This document shows, piece by piece, positions 829-62,575 of a DNA stretch of 64,000 nucleotides. The stretch's first letter is position 1; each line of letters starts with the position of its first letter. The notes beneath the pieces are model-generated. The model ran no database searches, was not told where the DNA came from, and worked only from the letters and a program-made list of their open reading frames with translations. This DNA comes from an uncultured Flavobacteriaceae bacterium (GTDB lineage: Bacteria; Bacteroidota; Bacteroidia; Flavobacteriales; Flavobacteriaceae): contig CANMSN010000010.1 in NCBI GenBank assembly GCA_947500585.1, forward strand, positions 62,001-126,000, given 5' to 3'. Position numbers and translations under genes: made by a program.

Positions 829-3081
829 TTACTTATCAAACTTTTTTAATAAAGCTGGTAAATAAAAAATATCTGTAATTAACGCAATAGCAACAGTTAC
901 CGCGCAAAGCAAACCAAAATATCTTACTGATGGTACAGCACTAGAACTTATAATTAAAAAGCCCCCAACTAATGCAATTGTGGTAGAGAGAAGTGCACCT
1001 CCAGTATATTTCATAGCATTATTCATACGCTGTTCTGGAGTTCCTATAATGTATTTACTACGTCGATATTTGTGTACTAAATGAATGGTATCATCCATAG
1101 CTATTCCTAACATAATTGGTGTAATCATTGCTGTTGTAACATCTAATGGAATATTTAATAAGCTCATAAAAATAGCCAATATAACTAATGGTAAAACGTT
1201 TGGAATTAATACTAAAAGTGTCGTTCTGAGGCTTTTTATAAAAAACCATAAACACAAAAAGGCAACAAAAAAAGCAGCAAAAAAGGATTTAAATTGCGTC
1301 TCTAAAATAAAATTATTTAACTGTGCAAAAACTACTGCAAAACCATTGATTTTGAGATTATAAGATGATGTTTCAAAGGATGTTTCAAAATCTTTTTTTA
1401 TATCGTCCAGCACTTGTTCAAGTTCTGAAGTTCGCATTTCTTTTAAAGTTAAAGTAAAGCCAGCAGTGGTTAAATCTTTAGAGAATAATTTAAAAAAACT
1501 ATTGCCGTTAACATCTAATTCTGCTAATGTGCTTTTTATCCTATCTTCAGATACACTAGATTGAAATAAAACTGGTGTACGTTTTTCTAAAAATGATTTT
1601 ATGGTAATTACCGAAACAGGCGAAGCAATTAAAGGGTTATTGTCAAGCTTATTCTGAAAATCTTCAAGCTGTTTCATAGCTTCTTTGTTCAGAATTTTTT
1701 CACCCTTTACTGTTGAAATATTTAACTGTAATCTATTGCTTCCGCCTAATTCAACTTCAACAGTTCTTAAATCTTGTTTAGCCTTTCCTTCAGCTAAAAG
1801 ATCACGCGAATTGGTATCTATTTTTACTTGAAAAATAGAATACGCCCCAAATAAAAGTACAACTGTAAAGGAAACTATAATCGTAGTTTTATACTTTGAT
1901 GTAAAACCATTAAGCCATTCTATAAATTTATGCTGAGAGTACTTTTTTATACTAAACAGCGGTTTTGCTTGTTCAAAATTTAAATTCATAAAACTAAAAC
2001 CTATTATAGTTATAACATAAACCAGAATAAAACTAAGCACTAAACCAATACAAGTAAATACACCCATATTTTTAAATGCAGGTAAAGGCGATAAATACAG
2101 TGCAAAATAACCAACAAATGTAGTAAGCGTGGTATAGAAACATGGTGTTAAACTTTTACGAATTGCTAATGTTAAGAGTTGCACCTTAGATAATGATTTA
2201 TTTACAATTCCTTCCTTATGATAAATATTTATAATATGAACAGCATCACTTACACTATATACCATAAGTATGGTTGGGATGAGCATAGAAATCATATTCA
2301 AAGCAAACCCTAAAGACGTTATGAGTCCAAATAGCAAACTTACTGGAACAGCGACCGAGAGAAGAGAAATAATTAAATAACGCTTACTTGGTAATAAAAA
2401 CAGCAATAGTATTGTAATGACCAAAACCGTTAAAATCCCAAAGGTTAAGCTCTCTTTATAAATACCTTTACTATAGGCTTCGTTTAAAACAGGTGGCCCT
2501 GTTAAATAATAATTAGAATATTGTTTTTCTATAATGGTACGTATTTCGCCTGCAATATCTTTGCGTTTCTCTTCTATGGTAGGTGTAGGGTTTAGTTGGA
2601 TGTAAAAAAACTGATTTTTATAATCCTTAGTTACCAATTGCGACGTGATATTTGACAATTTTGAAAACAGGTTTTTTAAACCTTTTTCGCTTCGTTTTTC
2701 ATTATATAAATCATCAAAATTAATTTTATTATTCGCATAAATAGGATATTTAGCCTTTGCTAGACTAAACGTTGTTTTAACATAAGGTAATGTTTCAATA
2801 CGTTCGTGAAGTGTATTTAGTTGTTGTATTTCTGCTTCTCCAATAGCATTTTTAACAGGAAGCATTGCGATAAAAATTTCGTCTGAGCCAAAATTTTCTT
2901 GAAAGTCTATATAAGCATTATAACTTGGATCATCTTCTAAAAACCAGATGGAAAGCGAATTGTCTACACGTAATTTTTGAAGCGTTTGATAGCCAGAAAC
3001 ACCCATTAAAATAGCAAGTACTATAATTATTGCTATTCTGAATTTAATAATAGTTTCTATGATATTTTCTAATCTTTTCAT
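829..3081 (-). CDS. MMPL/RND-family transporter
   Basis: A 750-residue inner membrane protein with the duplicated RND plan: one TM helix at residues ~13-30, a large extracytoplasmic loop, a TM block at ~210-370, a second single helix at ~400, a second loop, and a last TM block at ~600-745. Intramembrane acidic motifs appear at VYSVSDAVHII and MDDTIHLVHK. The MMPL branch moves hydrophobic or lipid-like compounds by proton motive force. It is the last gene of the polyketide/fatty-acid operon and overlaps the PPTase gene by 4 bp (ATGA), so export of the lipid product of this locus is the natural inference. The substrate is unknown. Confidence 0.88.
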   Translation of the reverse strand: MKRLENIIETIIKFRIAIIIVLAILMGVSGYQTLQKLRVDNSLSIWFLEDDPSYNAYIDFQENFGSDEIFIAMLPVKNAIGEAEIQQLNTLHERIETLPYVKTTFSLAKAKYPIYANNKINFDDLYNEKRSEKGLKNLFSKLSNITSQLVTKDYKNQFFYIQLNPTPTIEEKRKDIAGEIRTIIEKQYSNYYLTGPPVLNEAYSKGIYKESLTFGILTVLVITILLLFLLPSKRYLIISLLSVAVPVSLLFGLITSLGFALNMISMLIPTILMVYSVSDAVHIINIYHKEGIVNKSLSKVQLLTLAIRKSLTPCFYTTLTTFVGYFALYLSPLPAFKNMGVFTCIGLVLSFILVYVITIIGFSFMNLNFEQAKPLFSIKKYSQHKFIEWLNGFTSKYKTTIIVSFTVVLLFGAYSIFQVKIDTNSRDLLAEGKAKQDLRTVEVELGGSNRLQLNISTVKGEKILNKEAMKQLEDFQNKLDNNPLIASPVSVITIKSFLEKRTPVLFQSSVSEDRIKSTLAELDVNGNSFFKLFSKDLTTAGFTLTLKEMRTSELEQVLDDIKKDFETSFETSSYNLKINGFAVVFAQLNNFILETQFKSFFAAFFVAFLCLWFFIKSLRTTLLVLIPNVLPLVILAIFMSLLNIPLDVTTAMITPIMLGIAMDDTIHLVHKYRRSKYIIGTPEQRMNNAMKYTGGALLSTTIALVGGFLIISSSAVPSVRYFGLLCAVTVAIALITDIFYLPALLKKFDK

Positions 3082-3653
3082 GATAACGACACTGCATAAG
3101 CCCCATAATTTCCATGATGGCTTATAGAAATTCCAACATTCAACTTTTTAGAATTATAATATATGGAAGGTATTCCGAATTCTGATTTTACAATTTTTAG
3201 TTTTGATTTTAATACTTTAAACTGATTAGAAATAGAAACAAGTAATGCTTCCTTAATCATTTGACTCTGGTTTGCATAATTACTACATAATAATTTTATA
3301 CATTTTGATGTGATTTCTCTATGTTCTAAATGTGCTTCTGATAAAATATATTGAGATGAAATTTTAGTGTTTACAAAACATTTAAAGTCTTTATAGGTTA
3401 CTTTGAAATTCGCATTATTGATTTCACATTGAAATTGCTTTGGATTATAAAATCGACAGGGTTGTATTTGTGTATATAATTTATAAGCTGCCTCTTTCAT
3501 GCTCCATAGCTGCCAAACCATTATAAATGGGTTTTTAGAGTCGTGAATTAATTGCTGTTCATTTAATGTGAAGAGTTTCTCTAAAAAACGAGGTCTTTGC
3601 CAATTGGAAGATTTCTTTGTTTCAACAATATCTATGATATCTACGCCTACCAT
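3078..3653 (-). CDS. 4'-phosphopantetheinyl transferase superfamily protein
   Basis: 191 residues with both family motifs: MVGVDIIDI at the N-terminus (Mg-binding Asp5 and Asp8) and WSMKEAAYK at residues 50-58. The enzyme moves the phosphopantetheine arm from CoA to a carrier-protein serine. It starts one base into the ACP stop codon (TAATG), so it is translationally coupled to the carrier it probably activates. The length is between AcpS and Sfp types. A locus-dedicated PPTase suggests that the local ACP is kept separate from primary fatty acid synthesis. Confidence 0.87.
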   Translation of the reverse strand: MVGVDIIDIVETKKSSNWQRPRFLEKLFTLNEQQLIHDSKNPFIMVWQLWSMKEAAYKLYTQIQPCRFYNPKQFQCEINNANFKVTYKDFKCFVNTKISSQYILSEAHLEHREITSKCIKLLCSNYANQSQMIKEALLVSISNQFKVLKSKLKIVKSEFGIPSIYYNSKKLNVGISISHHGNYGAYAVSLS

Positions 3654-3904
3654 TAGTTGGCTAACTTTGTATTTACAATTTCCATTACTGCTTTAACATC
3701 AAGCATTTTTTCCATGTCCTCATTTTCCAACCTAATATCAAATTCATCTTCAATATCAAGAATAATATCTACTAAATTTGCTGAATTTATCTTTAAGTCT
3801 TTTACAAAATCTGTGTTTTCTGAAAGGTTTTTAAAAGCATCTTCATCTTGAATATAGGGTGCAATAATTTCCTTTAATTTAGAAATGAGTTCTTCGTTTT
3901 GCAT
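3653..3904 (-). CDS. Acyl carrier protein, specialised
   Basis: 83 residues with the carrier-protein helix pattern. The phosphopantetheine serine is most likely Ser41 in LKINSANLVDI. The usual DSL triad reads NSA here, while the serine and the downstream acidic helix (DIILDIEDEFDI) are kept. It sits between the ketosynthase and PPTase genes of the operon. The altered recognition triad fits a carrier served by its own PPTase rather than by the housekeeping AcpS; this is inference. Confidence 0.88.
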   Translation of the reverse strand: MQNEELISKLKEIIAPYIQDEDAFKNLSENTDFVKDLKINSANLVDIILDIEDEFDIRLENEDMEKMLDVKAVMEIVNTKLAN

Positions 3905-3927
3905 AACATTATTTTTTTAATGTAAAG

Positions 3928-5202
3928 TTACGCTATAAATCGTTTAAATAAAACACAGGCATTAACATCTCCAAAACCAAAACTGGCTTTAGCTAAAATA
4001 TTAAATTCAACATCCATTTTTTTATTTGGAATTTTTTCAGAAGCCACTAGTTTACTAATCTCTGGATGTAAGTCTTCACAATTAATATTTGGTGCTATAA
4101 ATTGTTCTTTTAACTGAATCACGCTTGCCACACATTCTATAGCTCCCGAAGCCGCTAAACAATGACCTATCATGGATTTAGTGGAATTGATATAAGGAAA
4201 ATCGTTTTCTTTTCTATTTAAGGCTTTACTCCAATTTTCTATCTCTAGAGCATCTTTTGATGTTGCAGTAAGATGTCCATTTATCACCTCAATATCATCG
4301 GGTTTTATATTAGCATTTTCAATAGCTTTTTTAATACAGCGCTGCACCGCCTTAGGGTTTGGAGCTGTTAATGTTCCACCATGGCGTTGCCCTCCAGAAT
4401 TTACTTCTCCTCCTAAAACCTCAGCATAAATAGTTGCTCCTCGCTCTAAAGCACTTTCTAGAGATTCTAAAACTAATGCGCCTGCACCACTTCCTGGAAC
4501 AAATCCTGATGCAGTAGCACTCATGGGTCTTGAACCTGCTTCTGGATTATCATTGTACTTATAAGTCATAACACGCATGGCATCAAAACCTCCCCAAAGA
4601 TATGGCCCATGATCACTACAACTACCAACCAACATCCGTTTTGCTTTTCCTGCTTGAATACGATTATATCCCATTAAAAGCGCTTCAGTTCCCGTAGTGC
4701 ATGCTGATGAATTTGTGGTAACTTGATTTCCTAAACCTAGCATCCCTCCTAAATATGCAGAAATTCCACTTGCCATCGTTTGAACTACAACGGTACTACC
4801 TAAACGTTTTACTTGTTTGTCGTCTAACTTATAAATAGCTTCTCGAAACTTCTCAACTCCAGAAGTCCCAGTGCCAAATATTAAACCTGTATCATAATCT
4901 AAATCACTTTCAGGATTCATATGAAAACCTGCATCTTTCCATGCATCAATACCAGCTATACAACCGTATAAAATTCCTGAACTATTAAATCCTCGCAATT
5001 GTAAATCAGTGAAATATTTCGATTTTAATTCATCTGAAATTTGAGGAATACCTCCTATTTGACATGAAAAATTTAAATCCTTTAATTCTTGATGAAAAGT
5101 GATACCAGATTTACCCTCTTTTAAAGCATTAGTAAAATTGGTAACACCAATAGCATTAGGCGATACAACTCCTAAACCTGTAATAACAACACGTTGTTTC
5201 AT
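3928..5202 (-). CDS. Beta-ketoacyl-ACP synthase (KAS II-like)
   Basis: 424 residues, full thiolase fold of FabF size. The active-site Cys168 lies in TTNSSACTTG, and the two histidines are His310 (INGHLTATSKD) and His347 (SMIGHCLAAS). The first histidine motif differs from the common NAHGTST form. It condenses acyl and malonyl units on ACP. It overlaps the dehydratase gene by 4 bp (ATGA). No chain-length-factor partner is visible, so it probably works as a homodimer. Confidence 0.9.
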   Translation of the reverse strand: MKQRVVITGLGVVSPNAIGVTNFTNALKEGKSGITFHQELKDLNFSCQIGGIPQISDELKSKYFTDLQLRGFNSSGILYGCIAGIDAWKDAGFHMNPESDLDYDTGLIFGTGTSGVEKFREAIYKLDDKQVKRLGSTVVVQTMASGISAYLGGMLGLGNQVTTNSSACTTGTEALLMGYNRIQAGKAKRMLVGSCSDHGPYLWGGFDAMRVMTYKYNDNPEAGSRPMSATASGFVPGSGAGALVLESLESALERGATIYAEVLGGEVNSGGQRHGGTLTAPNPKAVQRCIKKAIENANIKPDDIEVINGHLTATSKDALEIENWSKALNRKENDFPYINSTKSMIGHCLAASGAIECVASVIQLKEQFIAPNINCEDLHPEISKLVASEKIPNKKMDVEFNILAKASFGFGDVNACVLFKRFIA

Positions 5203-5636
5203 ATTTTCATCATTCCAGAAATTTTACCTCTTGCAACCAATTCATCTTTTTCATTAATCATTTTTACTTTACATTTCAACTTATTAAACCGAAAGATTTC
5301 TTTCTCAGAAATAACAGTTACTTTTTCATTAGGCAAAACAGGAAGGTAAAAATCTACCTGATGCGAAGTCAATGCTATTTGAGGTTTTGTTGTTTCATTC
5401 AGCTTATTTCTAAGCAAATAAATACCAAGACAAACTAGACCAATTTGTGCCATACATTCGGTTAAAATAACCCCTGGAGTAATTGGATTATTTTTAAAAT
5501 GCCCTTTATAAAATGATTCGTCTTTTTTGAAGGTGTAGTGTCCTGTAACACCATCTTCTGAAATAGCATTTATCCCATCTACGAATAGAAATGGGGTTTG
5601 ATAGGGTAAAAGTGATATGATTTTTTCTACTTTCAT
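5199..5636 (-). CDS. 3-hydroxyacyl-ACP dehydratase, FabZ-like hotdog protein
   Basis: About 145 residues with the FabZ signature KGHFKNNPITPGVILTE carrying the active-site His, and an N-terminal PYQTPFLFVD motif. It removes water from 3-hydroxyacyl-ACP. A longer reading from a GTG at 5654 is possible, but that GTG lies inside the REP palindrome next to the RAYT gene, so the ATG at 5636 is the better start. It opens the 3' half of the operon, directly after the RAYT insertion. Confidence 0.88.
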   Translation of the reverse strand: MKVEKIISLLPYQTPFLFVDGINAISEDGVTGHYTFKKDESFYKGHFKNNPITPGVILTECMAQIGLVCLGIYLLRNKLNETTKPQIALTSHQVDFYLPVLPNEKVTVISEKEIFRFNKLKCKVKMINEKDELVARGKISGMMKI

Positions 5637-5645
5637 AAGGTAAAT

Positions 5646-5678
5646 AGACCTCACAGGTTTTGAAAACCTGTGAGGTCT
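5646..5678. repeat. REP palindrome, copy 1 (RAYT 3' side)
   Basis: A perfect palindrome with 16-nt arms (AGACCTCACAGGTTTT and its complement) around a single central G. It lies 10 bp past the stop codon of the RAYT gene and 9 bp upstream of the dehydratase ATG, so its hairpin may affect expression of the downstream genes. Confidence 0.9.
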
Positions 5679-5688
5679 TACAATAAAA

Positions 5689-6249
5689 TTATTCTAATAA
5701 AAATATTTTTTCTAACTCTTGTTGTTTTATAAAATGAGAGGCAATGAAATTGTCCTTGTCTTCAAACAGACTGATGACCTCTTTTCTCAATAAAAGCGTG
5801 GGCTTACTCGATATTAATGATAAAAAAGAGGAATGTTTATATAATTTGAAGTCACTTACGAAAGCGTGGTGTTCTGGATTTAGATGAATATAAATAATTA
5901 ATCTTTTAAGATAATCTTCATTATCAACCTTAATTCTTGAAAACCTATCCTTAAATAAACTACCACTTCGTCCATAAGATTTATTAATACTTTTTGAATA
6001 TGAATTAAAAAAGTTTGAAAATGATTGAGATATTTTCTTCTCTTCGATATTTTCTCGAGTTTTCACTAAAAGATGAAAATGGTTTTTAAGAAGGCAATAC
6101 GCCATAATATTGCTTGTTGGAACAATATACTTTTTTAAAAGAGACAAAAAATAAGTATAGTTTTTATCTTCTAGGAAAATATTTTCCTTATTATTTCCAC
6201 AGTTGTAAATGTGAAAATAAGAATCTTCAACCAATGGTTCGTATTTCAC
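5689..6249 (-). CDS. REP-associated tyrosine transposase (RAYT), IS200-like Y1 family
   Basis: 186 residues. The HUH motif is seen as His57-Phe-His59 in LLKNHFHLLVK, the likely nucleophile is Tyr84 in FNSYSKSIN, and the family landmarks GSLFKDRF and YIHLNPEHH follow. RAYTs cut and join single-stranded DNA at REP hairpins and are normally single-copy domesticated enzymes. The gene is bracketed by palindromes with the same arms (5646-5678 and 6266-6320), with a third at 7151-7183. It sits between two fatty-acid genes of one operon in the same orientation, and it looks intact. Confidence 0.9.
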   Translation of the reverse strand: MKYEPLVEDSYFHIYNCGNNKENIFLEDKNYTYFLSLLKKYIVPTSNIMAYCLLKNHFHLLVKTRENIEEKKISQSFSNFFNSYSKSINKSYGRSGSLFKDRFSRIKVDNEDYLKRLIIYIHLNPEHHAFVSDFKLYKHSSFLSLISSKPTLLLRKEVISLFEDKDNFIASHFIKQQELEKIFLLE

Positions 6250-6265
6250 TTTTTTATACTTTTTG

Positions 6266-6320
6266 AGACCTCACAGGTTTCATGTGCTGAATTTATTTTA
6301 GTATCGAACCTGTGAGGTCT
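6266..6320. repeat. REP pair, copy 2 (RAYT 5' side)
   Basis: Left arm AGACCTCACAGGTTT at 6266-6280 and right arm AACCTGTGAGGTCT at 6307-6320, separated by 26 nt. These are the same arms as in copies 1 and 3 but with a longer loop. The element ends 17 bp before the start codon of the RAYT gene and just after the end of the enoyl reductase gene (stop at 6334). Confidence 0.85.
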
Positions 6321-6333
6321 TTTAAACTTAAAC

Positions 6334-7128
6334 TCAACTTAAATGCTCACCTCCATCTACAGGAATAGTAGTTCCTGTAATCCATGAGGCTTCATCTTTA
6401 CTTAATAAATATACCACATTGGCCACATCTTCAGGTAAAGTTAAACGCTTATTTGGATTTCTAATTAAACTATGTTCAATAATTGTTTCGCTATCAGGAA
6501 TCATTCTCAAAGAGGAGGTATCTGTAACACCTGCTTGAATACAATTGGCTTTAATTCCAAAAGGCGCAAATTCTAAGGCAATACTTCTAGTTATAGCTTC
6601 GAGTGTTACTTTAGCCCCAGAAACAGCTGCATAATTTTTCCAAGCTTTAGTATTCCCTTCGCTGGTAAAACTTATAATTCGTACATCATCTGCAAACAAA
6701 TTAGCATCAAAAATGGCTTTAGTCCAATCGTATAAACTTATAGCCATTGCATTAATGGTTAATGCAAAATCATCGTTTTTTAACACTGGTTTATCTTGAG
6801 AAATCATAGGCTTTAAATTGCCTTTTGCAATGCTGTGTATTAGTGTTCTTATGACGCCTTTTTCTATAAATAAAGTTTTTAATTCTTCAATGACAACATC
6901 TCGTTTTTCAGCTTTAGAAGCATCTATATTAAATGATTTAAACTGAACCCCTTCTTTTATTATTGTATTAAATTCTGCTTGAATGACATCATCTTGCGAC
7001 CTAGAATTTCGATGAACTATACAAATATTCATCCCATGCTTTGCTAGTTTTTTTGCAGTTGCCAAACCTAAACCAGAGCTTCCTCCAAGGATTAATGCCC
7101 ATTGATTTTTATTTTGAAATTCTTTCAT
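6334..7128 (-). CDS. FabL/FabI-like enoyl-ACP reductase (SDR fold)
   Basis: 264 residues with a Rossmann N-terminus (ALILGGSSGLG). The catalytic pair is Tyr166 and Lys173, spaced Y-x6-K (YAAVSGAK), the mark of enoyl-ACP reductases; ketoreductases have Y-x3-K. The layout NYAAVSGAKVTLEAITRSIA and the end VDGGEHLS recall Bacillus FabL. It reduces enoyl-ACP with NAD(P)H. No ketoreductase is present in the locus, so FabG from primary metabolism may be shared. It is separated from the PKS gene by a 105-bp spacer with a REP. Confidence 0.78.
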   Translation of the reverse strand: MKEFQNKNQWALILGGSSGLGLATAKKLAKHGMNICIVHRNSRSQDDVIQAEFNTIIKEGVQFKSFNIDASKAEKRDVVIEELKTLFIEKGVIRTLIHSIAKGNLKPMISQDKPVLKNDDFALTINAMAISLYDWTKAIFDANLFADDVRIISFTSEGNTKAWKNYAAVSGAKVTLEAITRSIALEFAPFGIKANCIQAGVTDTSSLRMIPDSETIIEHSLIRNPNKRLTLPEDVANVVYLLSKDEASWITGTTIPVDGGEHLS

Positions 7129-7150
7129 TTTGTTTATGAAGTTTTTTACT

Positions 7151-7183
7151 AGACCTCACAGGTTTCTAAAACCTGTGAGGTCT
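7151..7183. repeat. REP palindrome, copy 3
   Basis: Arms AGACCTCACAGGTTT (7151-7165) and complement (7169-7183) around CTA. It lies in the spacer between the type III PKS and the enoyl reductase. A smaller hairpin CTGAAACATGTTCAG follows at about 7201-7215. This copy has no transposase beside it and shows that the REP has spread within the operon. Confidence 0.88.
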
Positions 7184-7233
7184 TCTAATTTATGAGATAC
7201 TGAAACATGTTCAGCATGACAAAATGCTTTTTA

Positions 7234-8286
7234 TCACCATTCTAATAAAATACGTTGTGCCGAAAATCCGGGTCCAAAACTAAGCATAATCCCTTTGTCT
7301 CCTTTTGGCAAATCTCTATCCATAAAACGTTCTAACACATAAAGCACTGTAGCACTACTCATGTTTCCATATAAACGTAATACTTCTTTTGTATCATCTA
7401 TATTCTTACCTAAATCACCGAATAAATCTTCAACAGTTTGCACAATCTTTTTCCCTCCAGGATGAAATACTAAATGGTCAATATCTTCAATGGTTAAATC
7501 ATTCCGCTCTAAAAACGGATGAATAATTTTAGGAAAATGATCTGATATGGTTTGTGGTACAGATTGATCTAATACCATTTGTAAACCTGAATTTCTGAGC
7601 TTAAAACCCATCATATGTTCAGCATCAAAAAAATGATACATCGCTTCGTCCTTAATTTCTGGTCCAACCTCATCTTCATAAGACGACAAAATAACACTCG
7701 CACAACCATCACCAAAAATTGCTGCACTTACAATGTTTACCATCGAATAATCTTCTATTTGAAAAGTAGCCGTTGGAGATTCTACCGCTACTACAACAGC
7801 ACGTTTGTTTGGATTAGCTTTTAGAAAATTTTTAGCGTATAATATGCCTGAAACACCTGCTGCACAACCCATTTCTGTTACTGGCAAACGAACGATGTCT
7901 TGTTTCATTTTTAAACTATTAATTAAATAGGCATCCAAAGAAGGAATCATAATGCCAGTGCAACTAACGGTTATAATATAATCGATATCTGTGGGTTGTA
8001 ACTTTGCTTTATCCAAGACTTTTACTAAACACTTTTCTGCAAGTATTATTGATTCTCTTGCATAAATATCATTTTTTTCTTCGAACGAGGTCTTTAAAAA
8101 CACCTCTTCGGCATCCATTATAGAATAGCGTTTATCAACCGCTGCATTTTCAAAAATCTTAAGCACTTTCCGTTTAAAACGTTCCTCTTGTCCTTCTAAC
8201 CAAAGCTCCACAAAAGGTAAAATATCTTTTGTCTCTCTAGTATATTTTGGAAGTTGCTTTGCAACAGATGTAATTCTTACTGCCAT
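7234..8286 (-). CDS. Type III polyketide synthase
   Basis: 350 residues, chalcone-synthase superfamily. The triad is Cys141 (EMGCAAG), His275 (VFHPGGKK) and Asn308 (LYGNMSSAT); the C-terminal loop SFGPGFSAQR matches the GFGPG loop. It extends a CoA- or ACP-bound acyl starter with malonyl-CoA and cyclises it, giving pyrones, resorcinols or phloroglucinols in known members. Here it is immediately preceded by a methyltransferase and a flavoprotein and followed by acyl-chain genes, which suggests a long-chain starter. The product is unknown. Confidence 0.92.
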   Translation of the reverse strand: MAVRITSVAKQLPKYTRETKDILPFVELWLEGQEERFKRKVLKIFENAAVDKRYSIMDAEEVFLKTSFEEKNDIYARESIILAEKCLVKVLDKAKLQPTDIDYIITVSCTGIMIPSLDAYLINSLKMKQDIVRLPVTEMGCAAGVSGILYAKNFLKANPNKRAVVVAVESPTATFQIEDYSMVNIVSAAIFGDGCASVILSSYEDEVGPEIKDEAMYHFFDAEHMMGFKLRNSGLQMVLDQSVPQTISDHFPKIIHPFLERNDLTIEDIDHLVFHPGGKKIVQTVEDLFGDLGKNIDDTKEVLRLYGNMSSATVLYVLERFMDRDLPKGDKGIMLSFGPGFSAQRILLEW

Positions 8287-8997
8287 TTACGTTCTAATTA
8301 ACCATTGGTAACGAAATGCCCATTTCCAACGGATTTGTGATTTAAGGTTTAATTGTTTTGACATTTTTTCTAAATCTTCGCGCTTAAATGCGCGCAAAAT
8401 AGACGTTAATCCATCCTGAACGATCATATGGTTTGAAATTACCATTCCCAATAATTTGAATAAGCCATAAGCGACTTGACTACGTTGCAAATCGTTAACA
8501 ACGATTCCTAAATTAGATTTCTTTGATAAATTAGATAATAAACTTAAAATGTCTTGTTCTTTAAAATGATGCAAAAATAATGTTGTTAAAGCAATATCAT
8601 AATCTATTTCTTGAAATGCATCTGAAAAGACATCTTCATTCTTATAAGACAATTCAGGGTAGTTTATTGATAATTCCTTAGCATAATCAATGGCATCTTG
8701 GTTAGCATCAATACCTATTAGTTTAAAATTGTAATTGTGCTTTCTTCCGTAATCTGCTACTAATCTCAAAATATCACCATGTCCGCAGCCCAAATCTAAA
8801 ATTGTATAGGTTTTATCTTTGGATTGATGTTTCAATAATTGCTGAATACCATCTAGTGTTACTCGATTTCCACCAAGCCATTTATTTATTTTTCCTAGTT
8901 TGTCTAAAGTGTCGCGTAACAGATCGCCCTTCATAGAAAAATCGTCCATGAGTTCCGTTTCGTTACTTCTATATGCAGTATTTATAAATAAGGGCAT
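8287..8997 (-). CDS. SAM-dependent class I methyltransferase
   Basis: 236 residues. Motif I is ILDLGCGHGD at ~residues 71-80, the acidic end of strand 2 is LIGIDAN, and post-motif residues include TLFLHHF. It overlaps the flavoprotein stop codon by one base and ends directly before the PKS start, so the three genes are co-translated. Its likely role is O- or C-methylation of the polyketide ring, as with methyltransferases near other type III PKS genes. The target is inferred from context only. Confidence 0.85.
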   Translation of the reverse strand: MPLFINTAYRSNETELMDDFSMKGDLLRDTLDKLGKINKWLGGNRVTLDGIQQLLKHQSKDKTYTILDLGCGHGDILRLVADYGRKHNYNFKLIGIDANQDAIDYAKELSINYPELSYKNEDVFSDAFQEIDYDIALTTLFLHHFKEQDILSLLSNLSKKSNLGIVVNDLQRSQVAYGLFKLLGMVISNHMIVQDGLTSILRAFKREDLEKMSKQLNLKSQIRWKWAFRYQWLIRT

Positions 8998-10127
8998 TAC
9001 ACTTTCATAGGTTTACCATGGGTCATTTTAATAATCATTGGAACTAAGAATGGAAACCATTGTAATAGCATTAATAATTTTGGTGCTAACCAATTTTTTC
9101 TAAAGAAATAGGCAATAGTATGACCCACTTTAAGTCTTAAATTAAAGGTTTGTTGCCATCTTTTTGCATACAGGTTTTCCAATATTTTCCTAGATTTAAT
9201 TTTTCCTTGAAGATAATCAATTATGAGCTCAGAAGCTAATTGTGAGCTTCTAATGGCCATTCCCATACCGTTACCACATAAAGGATGAATCATACCTGCA
9301 GTATCGCCGCACATAATCATATGGTTTTCAACAGGACTTTTAGTTTCAAAAGAAATTTGACTAATTGTTAATGCTTCTTCAAACGCTTTTGTTGAATTTA
9401 AAAACAGTGCTTTTAAAGCGTTGTTTTTAAATAGTACTTCCTCTTGAAAAGCATCTATGTCTTTATACTTTTTGAAAGATTCAAAATTAGTAATATAACA
9501 TAGGTTTATGTTGTTGTTTTCTACTTTCGATACGCCACAATAACCGCCTTTAAAATTATGAAGCGCTACTTTATCTTCAGAAAAATTACCAGACACATGA
9601 ATCTTTACTCCTAAATATGGTGATTTCTTTTTGATGAATTTTCGTTGAAATTGGATATCTAAATGAGAACGTTTTCCATAAGCACCAATAACTATTTTAG
9701 ATTTAAAAACCTTATTAAATTTCGTTTTTACTTGAAAAGTATCAGCTTTAAATTCAACGTTATTTACACTGTCCTGAAGCACTTCAACTCCATTTTTAAG
9801 AACTAATTTATAGAGTTGAAAATCTAATTCGTAACGGCTTATTCCAAAACCACCAAGCGGCAATTTAGCTTCTATTTTTTTGTTATTGTGTGTAGTTAAT
9901 TCAAATTTTGAAATACGTTTTGAACCAAATTTGAAAGGATCAAATCCTAAAAAATTTAAATAAGGTAACACTTCATTAGACACATATTCGCCACAAACTT
10001 TATGTTTAGGATACGTATTTTTTTCAATAAGTAGCACTTTAATATTTGACTTGGATAGATGAATAGCATTTGTTAAGCCTGCTAAACCACCTCCTATAAT
10101 TATAACATCATATTTTTGTGTTAGCAT
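8997..10127 (-). CDS. FAD-dependent oxidoreductase, geranylgeranyl-reductase-like
   Basis: 376 residues. The N-terminal dinucleotide site is IIIGGGLAGL, followed by the PKHKVCGEYVS motif typical of the geranylgeranyl reductase/aromatic hydroxylase-like flavoproteins. The second FAD motif is MCGDTAGMIHPLCGNGMGMA. A hydrophobic C-terminal stretch suggests membrane contact. In this operon it may hydroxylate or oxidise the aromatic ring, or reduce double bonds in the chain; the sequence does not decide between these. Confidence 0.83.
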   Translation of the reverse strand: MLTQKYDVIIIGGGLAGLTNAIHLSKSNIKVLLIEKNTYPKHKVCGEYVSNEVLPYLNFLGFDPFKFGSKRISKFELTTHNNKKIEAKLPLGGFGISRYELDFQLYKLVLKNGVEVLQDSVNNVEFKADTFQVKTKFNKVFKSKIVIGAYGKRSHLDIQFQRKFIKKKSPYLGVKIHVSGNFSEDKVALHNFKGGYCGVSKVENNNINLCYITNFESFKKYKDIDAFQEEVLFKNNALKALFLNSTKAFEEALTISQISFETKSPVENHMIMCGDTAGMIHPLCGNGMGMAIRSSQLASELIIDYLQGKIKSRKILENLYAKRWQQTFNLRLKVGHTIAYFFRKNWLAPKLLMLLQWFPFLVPMIIKMTHGKPMKV

Positions 10128-34618: not shown

Positions 34619-35356
34619 TTGCAAATTCCTTTTGAGCCTCAATTATTTGGCTATAACATAAACATTCATCTAGTTTTAGAATATCTAGCGTTTTTTTTAG
34701 CGTTTCGATATTATGTGTTTTTACGAAGAAAAAGTGCTGATATTATTTCATCTAACAACAGGTTATCCATTATACTTGGTGCTGCTTTAGGGGCTTTAAT
34801 TGGGTCTCGATTAGTAGGTCTTTTAGAAAATCCGATTATTGAATTTTCACAACAAAGTATCATTCAATTATTAAATACGAAAACCATTATGGGTGGCTTG
34901 TTTGGTGGGTTATTGGGTGTAGAGCTTGTTAAAAAACGTATTGGTGAAACCCAATCTTCTGGAGATTTGTTTACGTTTCCTATAATTTTAGGCATTTTTG
35001 TTGGTCGTGTTGGGTGCTTTTTATCTGGCATTAATGAGTTTACTTATGGCAAAGAAACGTCCTTTTTTACGGGTATGGATTTAGGTGATGGCGTATTACG
35101 TCACCCAACATCGTTATATGAATTAATTTTTTTAGTTATTCTTTTTATTGGATTAAAACGCCTTCAGAAAACTAAAAAACCAAAAAACGGCGACCTATTT
35201 AAATGGTTTATGATTCTATATTTTGGGTTTCGGTTTTTTATAGAATTTTTAAAACCTAATGTATTTTATATGCTTGGATTGAGCACTATTCAATTATTAT
35301 GCATACTTTGTTTGCTATATTACAGAAACACTATTTTTGGTTTAAGAGCTATCTAA
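34619..35356 (+). CDS. Prolipoprotein diacylglyceryl transferase-like membrane protein
   Basis: 245 residues from a TTG start, about seven TM helices. The Lgt family signature region reads GIFVGRVGCFLSGINEFTYG, with HPTSLYE and a late GFRFFIEFLKP. In standard Lgt the motif is GRxGNFxNxE; here it is GRVGCFLSG, so this is a paralogue and may use another acceptor. It precedes a Tes-like radical SAM gene. Confidence 0.8.
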   Translation: MQIPFEPQLFGYNINIHLVLEYLAFFLAFRYYVFLRRKSADIISSNNRLSIILGAALGALIGSRLVGLLENPIIEFSQQSIIQLLNTKTIMGGLFGGLLGVELVKKRIGETQSSGDLFTFPIILGIFVGRVGCFLSGINEFTYGKETSFFTGMDLGDGVLRHPTSLYELIFLVILFIGLKRLQKTKKPKNGDLFKWFMILYFGFRFFIEFLKPNVFYMLGLSTIQLLCILCLLYYRNTIFGLRAI

Positions 35357-35359
35357 AAT

Positions 35360-35446
35360 GCCTGCGTTAGGGATTGAACGGTTTGTTTGAAATCCCCGAC
35401 ATAGGAGGGATTGAGTAGTGAAAGCCCGACCCTTGTGGTAACGCCC
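35360..35446. repeat. Structured intergenic repeat (GCGTTA...TAACGC element)
   Basis: Bounded by GCGTTA (35364) and TAACGC (35439-35444). It contains a hairpin GGATT...AATCC (35371-35395) and the blocks AGGAGGGATTGAG and AAAGCCCGACCC. Elements with this wording are frequent between flavobacterial genes. The strong pairing suggests either a transcribed structure or a small mobile element. It separates the Lgt-like gene from the radical SAM gene. Confidence 0.6.
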
Positions 35447-35462
35447 AAATAAAAAATAATAT

Positions 35463-36854
35463 ATGCCTATTAGAAAATATACCTATTACGACTTTACATT
35501 AAGCTTGTGCCCTGAGTGTTTAAAGCGTGTAGACGCCAAAATTGTATTTGAAAATGACAATGTTTACATGCTTAAACGCTGTAATGAACATGGAAATTCT
35601 AAGGTGTTGATTGCAGACGATATTGAGTACTATAAAAACATTAGAAACTATAATAAGCCAAGCGAAACGCCTTATAAATTTAACACACAAACGCATTATG
35701 GTTGTCCTTATGACTGTGGCTTGTGTCCCGACCATGAGCAGCATTCTTGCTTAACGGTTGTAGAGGTTACAGACCGTTGTAATTTAACGTGCCCAACGTG
35801 TTATGCTGGTTCGTCGCCAACGTATGGCAGACATCGTACTTTAGATGAGGTTAAAGCTATGCTGGACACGATTGTTAGGAATGAAAAAGAACCTGATGTG
35901 GTACAAATCTCTGGGGGTGAACCAACTACACATCCGCAATTTTGGAAGATTATGGATTATGCAAAATCGCTTCCTATTCGGCATTTAATGCTCAATACAA
36001 ATGGTATTAAAATAGCTAAGGATATCGCTTTCGCGGAACGACTAAAAACCTATGCCCCAGATTTTGAAATTTATTTACAGTTTGATTCTTTTGAAAATAG
36101 TGTGTTACGTGAACTTCGAGGAGCAGATTTGAATGACATACGAAAACAAGCCATTGAAAATTTAAATGCAGTAAACCTATCGACAACTTTAGTTGTTACA
36201 CTTCAAAAAGGTTTGAACGATCATGAGATTGGAAAGATTATAGATTATGCTTTAAAGCAAAAATGTGTTCGCGGCGTAACGTTACAGCCAACGCAAATTG
36301 CTGGACGTTTGGAAAATTTTAATCCTGAAACAGATCGTATGACGCTAACCGAAGTGCGCCGAAAAATAATGGAACAAACCGATATTTTTAATCCAGACGA
36401 TTTGTTGCCTGTACCTTGCAACCCTGATGCCTTGGTTATGGGTTATGCGCTTAAATTGGATGAAGAGGTTTTTCCATTAACGCGCTATATTAATCCAAAT
36501 GATTTATTAGATAATAGCAAGAATACCATTATTTATGAGCAAGATTCGCAATTACAAGATAAAATGATTGAACTTTTTAGCACAGGTAATTCGGTTGAAG
36601 TTGCTGAAGAAAATCTAAAAAGTATCATGTGTTGCTTACCAAATATTGATGCGCCAAACTTGGGTTACGATAATTTATTCCGTATTATTATCATGCAATT
36701 TATTGATGCTTACAACTTTGATGTACGCGCCATTAAAAAATCGTGTGTACATATTGTAGATAAAGACAATAAAATTATTCCTTTTGAAACCATGAATTTA
36801 TTTTATAGAGATGATAAAAAAGCGCGATTGGAAGAACTTAGAAACCAGATTTAA
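35463..36854 (+). CDS. Radical SAM protein, tetraether lipid synthase-like
   Basis: 463 residues. Three Cys clusters: LCPECLKR near the N-terminus, GCPYDCGLCPDHEQHSC at ~residues 80-95, and the radical SAM CxxxCxxC as DRCNLTCPTC. ISGGEPTTHP is the SAM-binding GGE motif. The double N-terminal cluster matches the MJ0619/Tes group, whose archaeal member joins lipid tails of tetraether lipids. A lipid or other membrane substrate is plausible here given the Lgt-like neighbour; not proven. Confidence 0.82.
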   Translation: MPIRKYTYYDFTLSLCPECLKRVDAKIVFENDNVYMLKRCNEHGNSKVLIADDIEYYKNIRNYNKPSETPYKFNTQTHYGCPYDCGLCPDHEQHSCLTVVEVTDRCNLTCPTCYAGSSPTYGRHRTLDEVKAMLDTIVRNEKEPDVVQISGGEPTTHPQFWKIMDYAKSLPIRHLMLNTNGIKIAKDIAFAERLKTYAPDFEIYLQFDSFENSVLRELRGADLNDIRKQAIENLNAVNLSTTLVVTLQKGLNDHEIGKIIDYALKQKCVRGVTLQPTQIAGRLENFNPETDRMTLTEVRRKIMEQTDIFNPDDLLPVPCNPDALVMGYALKLDEEVFPLTRYINPNDLLDNSKNTIIYEQDSQLQDKMIELFSTGNSVEVAEENLKSIMCCLPNIDAPNLGYDNLFRIIIMQFIDAYNFDVRAIKKSCVHIVDKDNKIIPFETMNLFYRDDKKARLEELRNQI

Positions 36855-36857
36855 ATT

Positions 36858-37058
36858 ATGAGTTTATTACTAGAACCAGGAAATCTAGATGGATTACTCA
36901 CCCTAATAGTGGCCATAATGTTAGGTCCTGCAATCTTATTAGCTATTATTGGAGCTCTAGTTTATAAAAAGCATAAAAAAGCTGCTAAAGTATTATTTAT
37001 TCTTGCAGTAGTTTATGTTATTATAAGCTTTGGTGTTTGTGGTGCTCTAATGATTTAA
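36858..37058 (+). CDS. Small two-helix membrane protein
   Basis: 66 residues: N-terminal MSLLLEPGNLDG, TM helix ~14-35, a KKHKKAAK basic turn, and TM helix ~45-64 ending GVCGALMI. It starts 3 bp after the radical SAM stop codon, so it is co-transcribed. No known family recognised. Confidence 0.75.
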   Translation: MSLLLEPGNLDGLLTLIVAIMLGPAILLAIIGALVYKKHKKAAKVLFILAVVYVIISFGVCGALMI

Positions 37059-37069
37059 AATAGAAGTTT

Positions 37070-37272
37070 ATGGTCTTTTTTTCAGAAGCAAACTATAATT
37101 TTGATGGTTTGTCTATACAATTTTAGCTATTATGCTTGTTCCCGCAGTTATATTCTGTATTATTGGGTTTGCGGTTCTGAAAAAGCATAAAAAAGCTGCC
37201 AAAGTATTATTCATATTAGCAACTATTTACACTATTATTAGTTTAGGTATTTGTGGTGCTTTTGCTGGTTAA
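37070..37272 (+). pseudogene. Frameshifted tandem copy of the small membrane protein
   Basis: From ATG at 37070 the copy reads MVFFSEANYNFDGLSIQ and then stops; a +1 shift restores ILAIMLVPAV... and KKHKKAAKVLFILATIY to a TAA at 37272. This parallels the 36858 gene along its length. The 203-bp span is not a multiple of three. A short functional form from the internal ATG (37132) with 47 residues is still possible. Confidence 0.75.
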
Positions 37273-60739: not shown

Positions 60740-62575
60740 TCAGCCTTTTTTAACATCAATAGGTTTTCCTAAATAAACCAATTTATAACCTTTTTCTATT
60801 TTTTCAATAGCTTTATTATAAGAAGAAATAATTTCCAAAACGCCTTTTTTATCCTTAACTAATAGCGGAATAATGTCTTCATCCTTATTGGTTATTTCAA
60901 TAAGTTCTTCATAATGCGCTCTATCATTAATTTCAATCTCATGTATCTCAGGGTATTTTCGAGCTACTTCGGTTAATAAATGAAAATCGTCTGTATGTGA
61001 AAACAAGCCTTCTTTTGGACTATTATTTGAATCGGCCATTTCATCAACCGTAATTAATCTAAACGAGCCGTTTTCACCAAATTGCTCTCCAAATTTATTA
61101 ATGGCATATTGATTAATATCTGAATTACCTGTTAAAGCCATTAAATAACCAACATCGTTAAGCTCAATATTATCGCCCAAAGTTTCAGAATAAATATCGG
61201 TATTTATGCCCTCCAACCCTATATCTTGAGCCAACTGTATGTTTGTTTGATTACTATCAATTAAAACAACATGTCTGTTATTATCTTCTAAATACTTACC
61301 TATTAAACGAGAGACTTGAGAGGCGCCTACTATTAAAATACCTTCCGATTTTTTTAGAAATACCCCAACCATTTTTGCAAATAATCTAGCTGTTGTTGCA
61401 TTTAATAAAACAGTTCCTAAAACAATCATAAACACCAAAGGTGTAATATATTCAGCACCTTCAACACCTTGTTTCATAAGCTTACTACCGAAAAGAGACG
61501 CAATTCCTGCTGCTACAATACCTCTCGGACCAACCCAACTAATAAAAAGCTTTTCATTTGTAGACAAATTAGAGCCGGATGTACTTAAAAATACTGCTAA
61601 AGGCCTTATAACAAATACAACTATAGCAAAAAGAGCCGCTGTTTTCCAGGTATAAAGGAGCATTAAGTCATCAATACTTATATTGGCGGCCAGAAGAATA
61701 AATAAAATTGAAATAAGCAAAACACTTAAAGACTCTTTAAAATAGAGCAACTCTTTAATATTTTCTAGTTTTCCATTTCCTAAAACCATCCCCATAACTA
61801 CTACAGCTAAAAGCCCCGACTCGTGTGCAAATACTTCAGATTCAACAAAAACCAATAAAACTGTTGACAGCGAAACTACATTTAGCAAATAATGCGGAAT
61901 CAATTTTTTATTTATTGCAAAAGCCAAAGCATGCGCAAAAGTAAACCCAAAAGTCGTACCAAAAAGAATGATTTTTCCAAACTCAATCAAGGCTGTTTTT
62001 GTAAAACCGCTGTCGCCTTCCACACTAATAAACTCAAATACCAAAACGGCTACCAAAGCACCTATTGGGTCTATTAAAATGCCTTCCCATTTTAATACCG
62101 TTGATATATCTTTTTTAAGTGGAATATTTCTTAAAATTGGTGTTATTACTGTAGGTCCCGTAACAATTATAAGTCCTGCAAATAGAAAAGACAGTTCCCA
62201 GCTCAATCCAAAAATTAAATAGGCTATAATACCTGCTCCAAAAAAAGTAATTGCCGAACCTAAAGTTATTAATTTGGTAATTACAGGACCAACCGTTTTA
62301 ATTTCAGATCGCTTTAAAGTTAAACCACCTTCAAAAAGAATGATACTAATGGCTAAAGAGACGAAATAATACAAACCTTCTCCTGGAAATAAGCCTTTTT
62401 CACCATTCCAAATAGGTTCTATCCATTTGGTTCCATCATCAGATAAAAACTCAGAAGCTATTGGCCCAACCAATAAACCTATTAAAATTAATGGTAAGAT
62501 GGCAGGAATTTTTAATTTCCAAGCTACCCATTGTGCCAATATACCTAAAATTATTATGCCTGCTAACTCTAACAT
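60740..62575 (-). CDS. Cation:proton antiporter with RCK (TrkA-N) domain
   Basis: 611 residues. About twelve TM helices with CPA-type Na/H exchanger motifs (ILFEGGLTLK, TGPTVITPILRN, WVGPRGIVAAGI) to ~residue 400, then a TrkA-N nucleotide-binding domain from ~415 (ILIVGASQVSRLIGKYL). Exchanges Na+ or K+ for H+ at the inner membrane; the RCK domain suggests ligand control. Divergent from the stress protein gene. Confidence 0.92.
   Translation of the reverse strand: MLELAGIIILGILAQWVAWKLKIPAILPLILIGLLVGPIASEFLSDDGTKWIEPIWNGEKGLFPGEGLYYFVSLAISIILFEGGLTLKRSEIKTVGPVITKLITLGSAITFFGAGIIAYLIFGLSWELSFLFAGLIIVTGPTVITPILRNIPLKKDISTVLKWEGILIDPIGALVAVLVFEFISVEGDSGFTKTALIEFGKIILFGTTFGFTFAHALAFAINKKLIPHYLLNVVSLSTVLLVFVESEVFAHESGLLAVVVMGMVLGNGKLENIKELLYFKESLSVLLISILFILLAANISIDDLMLLYTWKTAALFAIVVFVIRPLAVFLSTSGSNLSTNEKLFISWVGPRGIVAAGIASLFGSKLMKQGVEGAEYITPLVFMIVLGTVLLNATTARLFAKMVGVFLKKSEGILIVGASQVSRLIGKYLEDNNRHVVLIDSNQTNIQLAQDIGLEGINTDIYSETLGDNIELNDVGYLMALTGNSDINQYAINKFGEQFGENGSFRLITVDEMADSNNSPKEGLFSHTDDFHLLTEVARKYPEIHEIEINDRAHYEELIEITNKDEDIIPLLVKDKKGVLEIISSYNKAIEKIEKGYKLVYLGKPIDVKKG

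Follow-up and report, generated by a model that had tools for sequence, protein, structure and literature searches.

A conserved gene cassette of Bacteroidota that pairs an Lgt-like protein and a tetraether-synthase-fold radical SAM enzyme with Cys-tailed small membrane proteins

Organization of the cassette

The 64,000-nucleotide stretch analysed here (positions 62,001 to 126,000 of contig CANMSN010000010.1, assembly GCA_947500585.1, from an uncultured Flavobacteriaceae bacterium; hereafter the window) carries a three-gene cassette on its + strand (34619-37058). The first gene (34619..35356, +) encodes LgtX, an Lgt-like transferase paralogue of 245 residues that starts at a TTG codon. The second (35463..36854, +) encodes a radical S-adenosylmethionine (SAM) enzyme of 463 residues with the fold of the tetraether synthase Tes, and the third (36858..37058, +) a Cys-tailed membrane protein of 66 residues, a candidate acceptor that has two hydrophobic helices and ends with ISFGVCGALMI. 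A first-pass annotation of the DNA had named an Lgt-like, a radical SAM and a small two-helix membrane protein in this region, and all three genes were borne out, each far beyond chance. Absent from that annotation is a second copy of the small-protein gene with a broken frame (37070..37272, +), of which an open piece of 46 residues (37132-37272) retains ISLGICG.

Distribution of the cassette

A survey of 395 Bacteroidota genomes with profiles of the radical SAM enzyme (E <= 1e-30) and LgtX (E <= 1e-25) detected the former in 34 genomes, the latter in 32 and both in 31 (Fisher p 1.7e-41). The three genomes with the radical SAM gene only contain low-scoring relatives, one above the cut-off of the Tes model (493.8 bits), one just below it (441.9), and a third for which the 378-residue piece scanned matched no family at E 1e-30. 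In two genomes (G181 and G414), both genes are kept, on different contigs. Where a locus extends 3 kb or more upstream (100 loci), LgtX is present in 95 cases and often overlaps the radical SAM gene by 3-64 bases. Among 149 related genomes, including that of the window, 17 others possess a full-length relative of the radical SAM enzyme, and LgtX sits just upstream on the same strand in 17/17. At least 80 loci (the best 80) come from named genomes, with all titled groups belonging to Bacteroidota (among them Algibacter, Maribacter, Mucilaginibacter, Hymenobacter and Chitinophaga). The neighbourhood survey, which the first-pass annotation had suggested as a check, thus revealed the three genes to be a conserved cassette.

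Within the family of the window, a profile of the small protein matches 15 of the 149 genomes, comprising all 13 with an intact radical SAM gene, in addition to G072, in which that gene is broken, and G003. Near lepA in G072 (locus L050, ~7695-8060, before lepA) lies a decayed cassette, in which both the radical SAM gene and the small-protein gene are broken and LgtX was not found in the locus, suggesting a recent loss. G003 has no full-length radical SAM match; its small-protein homologue reads SSGFFYAII, compared to SLGICG elsewhere, and has thereby lost the Cys. A faint match to the tail of the radical SAM enzyme (E 0.023) directly precedes this homologue, and LgtX was not found in the contig stretch read, to which the LgtX search was limited.

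Beyond these genomes, a tblastn search of plasmids gave 10 records, whose neighbourhoods were read except for H5, H6 and H10. A Persicobacter (Bacteroidota) plasmid bears the full cassette. On plasmids of Mycobacterium branderi, M. avium and Nonomuraea, an Lgt-family gene adjoins a radical SAM gene whose product is 27-28% identical to the window enzyme, together with one or two membrane proteins that end with SGGLCTG, TVGVCTG, TAGICTG, SAGYCTG or SAGICTG. In Mycolicibacterium vanbaalenii and two haloarchaea, by contrast, the radical SAM relative lies beside a methyltransferase gene (a pairing for which the name TrsM is used) and has no Lgt gene; by these neighbours the three relatives are taken as TrsS-type. 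The partners therefore sort with the radical SAM subfamily, an Lgt in the actinomycete cassettes versus a methyltransferase beside the TrsS-type. Finding the cassette on plasmids of mycobacteria points either to movement between phyla or to an old origin.

It is hardly credible that the genes are unrelated neighbours which chance or shared transcription has placed side by side. In the family of the window, the radical SAM gene does also have conserved neighbours, lepA and dus among them; yet the co-occurrence is phylum-wide in changing surroundings, persists in unlinked genes and extends across phyla. Chance neighbourhood was rejected on the co-occurrence counts and on the controls described below, and joint function of the three parts is well supported.

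The order of the genes varies. The small protein sits between LgtX and the radical SAM gene in one family of the order (5/5 loci), and three divergent loci (L114, L115 and L116) have the radical SAM gene, a DUF4395 membrane protein (PF14340 above cut-off), LgtX and a Cys-tailed protein in this order. In the window, an imperfect palindromic repeat-like element (35358..35452, no strand) separates LgtX from the radical SAM gene, a pair of genes that overlap in many relatives. The element has a DNA fold z of -2.3 and partial copies at other sites of the genome, and is probably a repeat that inserted into the operon.

Cys-tailed small membrane proteins

The small protein is the most informative part of the cassette. 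No Pfam family matches the small proteins above cut-off, nor does any NCBI model match that of the window. They were screened as short open reading frames (ORFs) with a hydrophobic helix, on the same strand and within 900 bases downstream of the radical SAM gene, and the motif was defined as [IVL][GSA]x[GSA]xC, placed where the last helix reaches the outer side; the consensus of this constant feature is [IV][GS]x[GS]xC. From 118 loci, removal of three exact duplicates and three loci with a radical SAM score of 350 or less (L117-L119) left 112, which are related by descent, so that the counts are not independent; 15 of them were excluded from the comparison with controls on account of short downstream DNA. 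A Cys-tailed ORF follows the radical SAM gene in 88 of the remaining 97 loci and the motif in 84, compared to 7 and 0 on the antisense strand, 7 and 0 at +2-2.9 kb, 6 and 0 at +3-3.9 kb, and 9 and 1 on the antisense strand of the 2-2.9 kb stretch. Over all 112 loci, the looser Cys-tailed ORF, which includes some noise, occurs in 104, the motif in 91 and all three parts in 85; four of the eight loci without a Cys-tailed ORF have less than 350 bases downstream.

Loci with the motif contain one copy (59 loci), two (26), three (5) or four (1), and tandem copies are divergent, with a median identity of 36% (47 pairs). Among 30 aligned small proteins, some of which are only 11-20% identical to that of the window, the Cys (Cys61 in the window, codon 37038..37040, +) is the sole invariant column. 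One-, two- and three-helix forms exist; for example, five Hymenobacter loci (L186, L187, L189, L194 and L202) combine three-helix copies with very short one-helix versions of ~40 residues, some of which begin with a proline-rich stretch. In all helix forms, lysine and arginine residues cluster just ahead of the last helix and hardly any follow the Cys: the balance favours the preceding side in 123 of 130 motif proteins and the opposite side in none. The positive-inside rule therefore puts the Cys on the outside irrespective of helix count. This position, at the outer end of a helix with its N-terminus inside, resembles that of the Cys in bacterial lipoproteins. Lipoproteins carry a lipobox of the pattern [LVI][ASTVI][GAS]C, whereas only one of the 130 motif proteins has this strict lipobox.

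A single invariant Cys might also belong to a redox or metal-delivery partner of the radical SAM enzyme or LgtX, serving as a ligand or disulfide partner, and one TrsS-type locus does lie near thiol-redox genes (CcdA and a disulfide oxidoreductase). We consider this quite improbable, in view of the outward orientation, the divergent tandem copies and the lack of a second conserved Cys in the motif proteins, 83 of 130 of which have just one Cys.

Structural features of LgtX

LgtX belongs to the Pfam family LGT (PF01790; 95.2 bits, E 5e-27) and scores 44.7 bits against the TIGR00544 lgt equivalog, under the cut-off of 118.9. The same genome encodes a separate Lgt on another contig (TIGR00544, 146.9 bits). 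LgtX was rejected as the general Lgt because TIGR00544 finds its best match outside LgtX in each of the 32 LgtX-bearing genomes searched; this best match attains the cut-off in only 22 of the 32.

The predicted model of LgtX, with a predicted local distance difference test score (pLDDT) of 87.1, superimposes on Escherichia coli Lgt (PDB 5AZB) with a Z-score of 14.2 across 236 residues, compared to 7.5 for the next, unrelated structure. Equivalents of R143, E202, Y235 and R239 of E. coli Lgt are present in 9/9 aligned LgtX rows, E243 is either Glu or Asp, and most of the Lgt glycines are also retained. R143 and R239, described as essential for transfer in E. coli Lgt in the portion of PMC4728403 available to us, correspond to R130 and R205 of the window LgtX. 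By contrast, H103, N146 and N149 are changed in 9/9 rows, N146 to Cys. The window LgtX has MGGL where Lgt has HGGL, and its signature GRVGCFLSGINEFTYG (35003..35050, +) replaces GRLGNFINGELWG of E. coli Lgt, with the R143 equivalent kept and Cys133 in place of N146. The stretch GRVGCFLSG, which the first-pass annotation had reported instead of GRxGNFxNxE, is indeed present. Y26 is replaced by His in 7/9 rows and remains Tyr in L114 and L116, the LgtX of which has a GCCYG motif, and Y30 is replaced by Glu in 4/9. Across 41 Bacteroidota sequences, H17 (at Y26), E21 (at Y30) and Cys133 of LgtX are invariant. In addition, the positions of W256 and Y259 fall into a gap of the alignment, and much of the periplasmic head of E. 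coli Lgt is missing from the short LgtX. Judged by sequence, LgtX may be read as a phospholipid-handling core with an altered acceptor side, and its partner small proteins differ from Lgt substrates in having no lipobox.

Fold and metal sites of the radical SAM enzyme

A search of PDB sequences with the radical SAM protein gave Tes (PDB 7TOL) as the only strong match, with an E-value of 2e-68 against 0.0026 for the next, and Foldseek gave 4.8e-34. The predicted model, with a mean pLDDT of 72.8 and a weak segment at residues 341-398, aligns with Tes (PDB 7TOM) with a Z-score of 42.2 over 418 residues at 29% identity; the next match outside Tes is MoaA, at 17.9. Ranks past the first match in the structure searches (Foldseek and VIA) were used as a yardstick only.

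Three of the four Tes metal sites are retained. The rubredoxin-like site C16-x2-C19-x20-C40-x2-H43 (35508..35591, +) has the same spacing as the CX2CX20CX2H given for Tes in the accessible text of PMC9433317. It is followed by the N-terminal auxiliary cluster motif C81-x3-C85-x2-C88 with H91/H94 (35703..35744, +) and by the radical SAM cluster C106-x3-C110-x2-C113 (35778..35801, +). All three sites are invariant in 42 aligned sequences; the double Cys clusters of the first-pass annotation are therefore real, and the rubredoxin-like site comes in addition to them.

The C-terminal region differs. The pattern CC...PFC is common to the Tes, TrsS-type and actinomycete rows, whereas the window type has SC...PFE: S427 and E442 stand where Tes and the TrsS-type have Cys, so that two of the three common cysteines are replaced, and C428 is kept. 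The altered set consists of C319, C390, C391 and C428 (36417..36746, +), of which C319 is found also in the TrsS-type and actinomycete rows, and the window type possesses C390 and C391 as well. The cluster of the Tes C-terminal domain is the proposed holder of the substrate radical, and Tes stays active after changes of Y459 and M439 (both from the available part of PMC9433317). Ile431 of the window enzyme appears to occupy the position of Tes Tyr459, and the middle of the C-terminal domain gives no sequence alignment to Tes.

Tandem divergent small ORFs beside a radical SAM gene are a usual layout for modified peptides. The enzyme might accordingly modify the peptide itself, as for ribosomally synthesized and post-translationally modified peptides (RiPPs), for example through a Cys thioether, with LgtX and the small helices merely anchoring or exporting the product. 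Lipidated modified peptides do exist and use the general Lgt pathway (PMC12636315, in part). We regard such a role as improbable because the fold and three metal sites match a lipid enzyme, the Cys lies on the outer face, away from a presumably cytoplasmic radical SAM enzyme, and the alignment of 30 small proteins displays no leader/core pattern beyond the transmembrane-Cys end. A close published parallel is the lipidated RiPP DybA (MNIO family), in which a small peptide is likewise given to the lipoprotein route. It differs in that its lipobox is normal, its lipidation follows the general Lgt/LspA/Lnt route and its modifying enzyme is an iron oxidative one, and the term "radical SAM" is absent from the accessible text (PMC12636315).

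Placement relative to Tes and TrsS

Among the NCBI models, the window enzyme scores best against TrsS (NF045646; 334 bits, cut-off 490), followed by 289.7 bits against Tes (NF045702; cut-off 450). In the phylogenetic tree, the Tes rows form a clade with 100/99 support, and the window type branches outside it. Forcing the window type together with Tes costs 27 log units and gives p = 0.00164 in the approximately unbiased (AU) test, a value to be taken with care given 22 rows and long branches. The LgtX-linked radical SAM proteins themselves group together at 65/29 only in the best tree, where branches are long; the GCPYDCGLC motif is missing from the actinomycete rows. A plain Tes was rejected on the model scores, the C-terminal cysteines and the tree. 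The likeness to the Tes group noted in the first-pass annotation thus holds for the fold and the three metal-site motifs, and fails on the cut-offs, on the Tes clade and its AU test, and on the C-terminal Cys; the phylogeny it had proposed against Tes (MJ0619) placed the enzyme outside.

Compared to Tes, also known as GDGT-MAS (MJ0619; PDB 7TOL and 7TOM), the window enzyme shares the whole-protein fold and the spacing of the rubredoxin-like, N-terminal and radical SAM clusters, and differs in being paired with LgtX and Cys-tailed proteins. With TrsS it shares C319, and the TrsS model covers the C-terminal region; however, the three TrsS-type plasmid relatives have a methyltransferase gene rather than an Lgt gene as neighbour, whereas no methyltransferase gene adjoins that of the window. 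TrsS has a single mention, in a table, in the portion of the literature searched. Earlier work has pointed out bacterial homologues of Tes and guessed that they produce branched tetraethers (PMC8941075, PMC9433317), with further accounts in PMC11868695 and PMC10087280; the available parts of the first two assign no tested function, and the remark that bacterial Tes-like enzymes are little known is a fair one. One Bacteroidota protein, encoded at L117 of G213 (6864-8321) without LgtX, exceeds the Tes cut-off (493.8 versus 450) and is by sequence a candidate true bacterial Tes.

These relatives bear on a serious, if rather unlikely, alternative, namely that the product of the cassette is a free membrane lipid, such as a coupled iso-fatty-acid or branched tetraether-like lipid, with LgtX shuttling diacylglyceryl between lipids and the small proteins acting as accessory subunits or lipid chaperones. 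The nearest solved enzyme, Tes, is a lipid coupler, and bacterial Tes homologues have been proposed to make branched tetraethers (PMC8941075 and PMC10087280, in part). Nevertheless, the Tes-type Bacteroidota proteins of L117 (above the cut-off) and L119 (just below) have no LgtX partner, and small proteins that vary in everything except the outer Cys, in one to four divergent copies, would be odd for a fixed subunit. The divergent tandem copies fit substrates better than subunits.

Other features of the window

An Rfam scan of the window found one tRNA and nothing else. At 829-10127, consecutive genes of ketosynthase, dehydratase, reductase and methyltransferase-like type together resemble, as judged by eye, an aryl-polyene or flexirubin pigment cluster.

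A proposed lipidation cassette

The co-occurrence of the parts, a conserved Cys that the charge bias places outside, and the matching folds are observations; that the small proteins are acceptors, which lipid is the donor, in what order the steps follow and what the radical SAM enzyme makes are inferences. The reading that we tentatively prefer, at somewhat less than an even chance, is a dedicated lipidation cassette, with LgtX loading the Cys of the small protein and the radical SAM enzyme working on the lipid tails to couple or alter them. The small proteins would be the acceptors, the last helix running from the cytoplasm to the outside with the invariant Cys at the outer face; this geometry would be that of a lipoprotein signal peptide, without a lipobox cleavable by signal peptidase II. 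LgtX would transfer a diacylglyceryl group, or a similar phospholipid-derived group, to the Cys thiol. The Tes-fold enzyme would couple the lipid tails, such as iso-branched chains, at their ends or modify those ends in another way, acting either on the loaded protein or earlier on the lipid donor. The products would be uncleaved small proteins with an unusual lipid anchor, perhaps membrane-spanning or cross-linked.

Bacteroidota are rich in iso-branched fatty acids. Since the tails of such fatty acids end like archaeal phytanyl tails (PMC8941075, as far as available), a Tes-like coupling would be chemically sensible here. The "lipid-modifying set" of the first-pass annotation survives as the best available reading, in that the likeness to Lgt and Tes is real by sequence and fold, though the two enzymes are neither Tes nor the general Lgt. 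No paper on the cassette was found in the searched literature on diacylglyceryl transferases such as Lgt in connection with radical SAM enzymes, tetraethers or gene neighbourhoods, a body of text outside which most subscription journals fall.

Several points weigh against a lipidation cassette. The loss of the HGGL His, of N146 and N149, of much of the periplasmic head and of W256/Y259 means that the donor, the acceptor or the activity of LgtX may differ from those of Lgt. The C-terminal cysteines of the radical SAM enzyme, candidate cluster ligands by sequence, form a set that differs from that of Tes. Moreover, the enzyme has no predicted membrane-spanning helix and is presumably cytoplasmic, whereas the candidate Cys faces outwards. 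One genome of 395 (G164) has LgtX, and the radical SAM gene was not found in it; at its locus (L205, 7758-8462), neither the radical SAM gene nor a motif small protein is nearby. The small protein was not found beside either gene in G181, nor at the loci L172, L173 and L193. Finally, loss of the Cys along with the enzymes is seen in one genome (G003), as the remnant in G072 retains the Cys.

A bolder form of the same proposal, which we hold as doubtful, is that of lipid-stapled proteins, small uncleaved membrane proteins whose diacylglyceryl-Cys tails are joined end to end by a Tes-like enzyme. If true, lipid stapling would be a new class of protein modification, in which the tails are linked either mutually or from one side of the membrane to the other, and bacteria would make such proteins independently of the usual lipoprotein pathway. 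Overall, the cassette offers a concrete and genetically tractable context for bacterial relatives of tetraether synthase. It also leads to the prediction that bacteria have a second lipidation route, dedicated to acceptors of its own, for which the acceptor residue is named.

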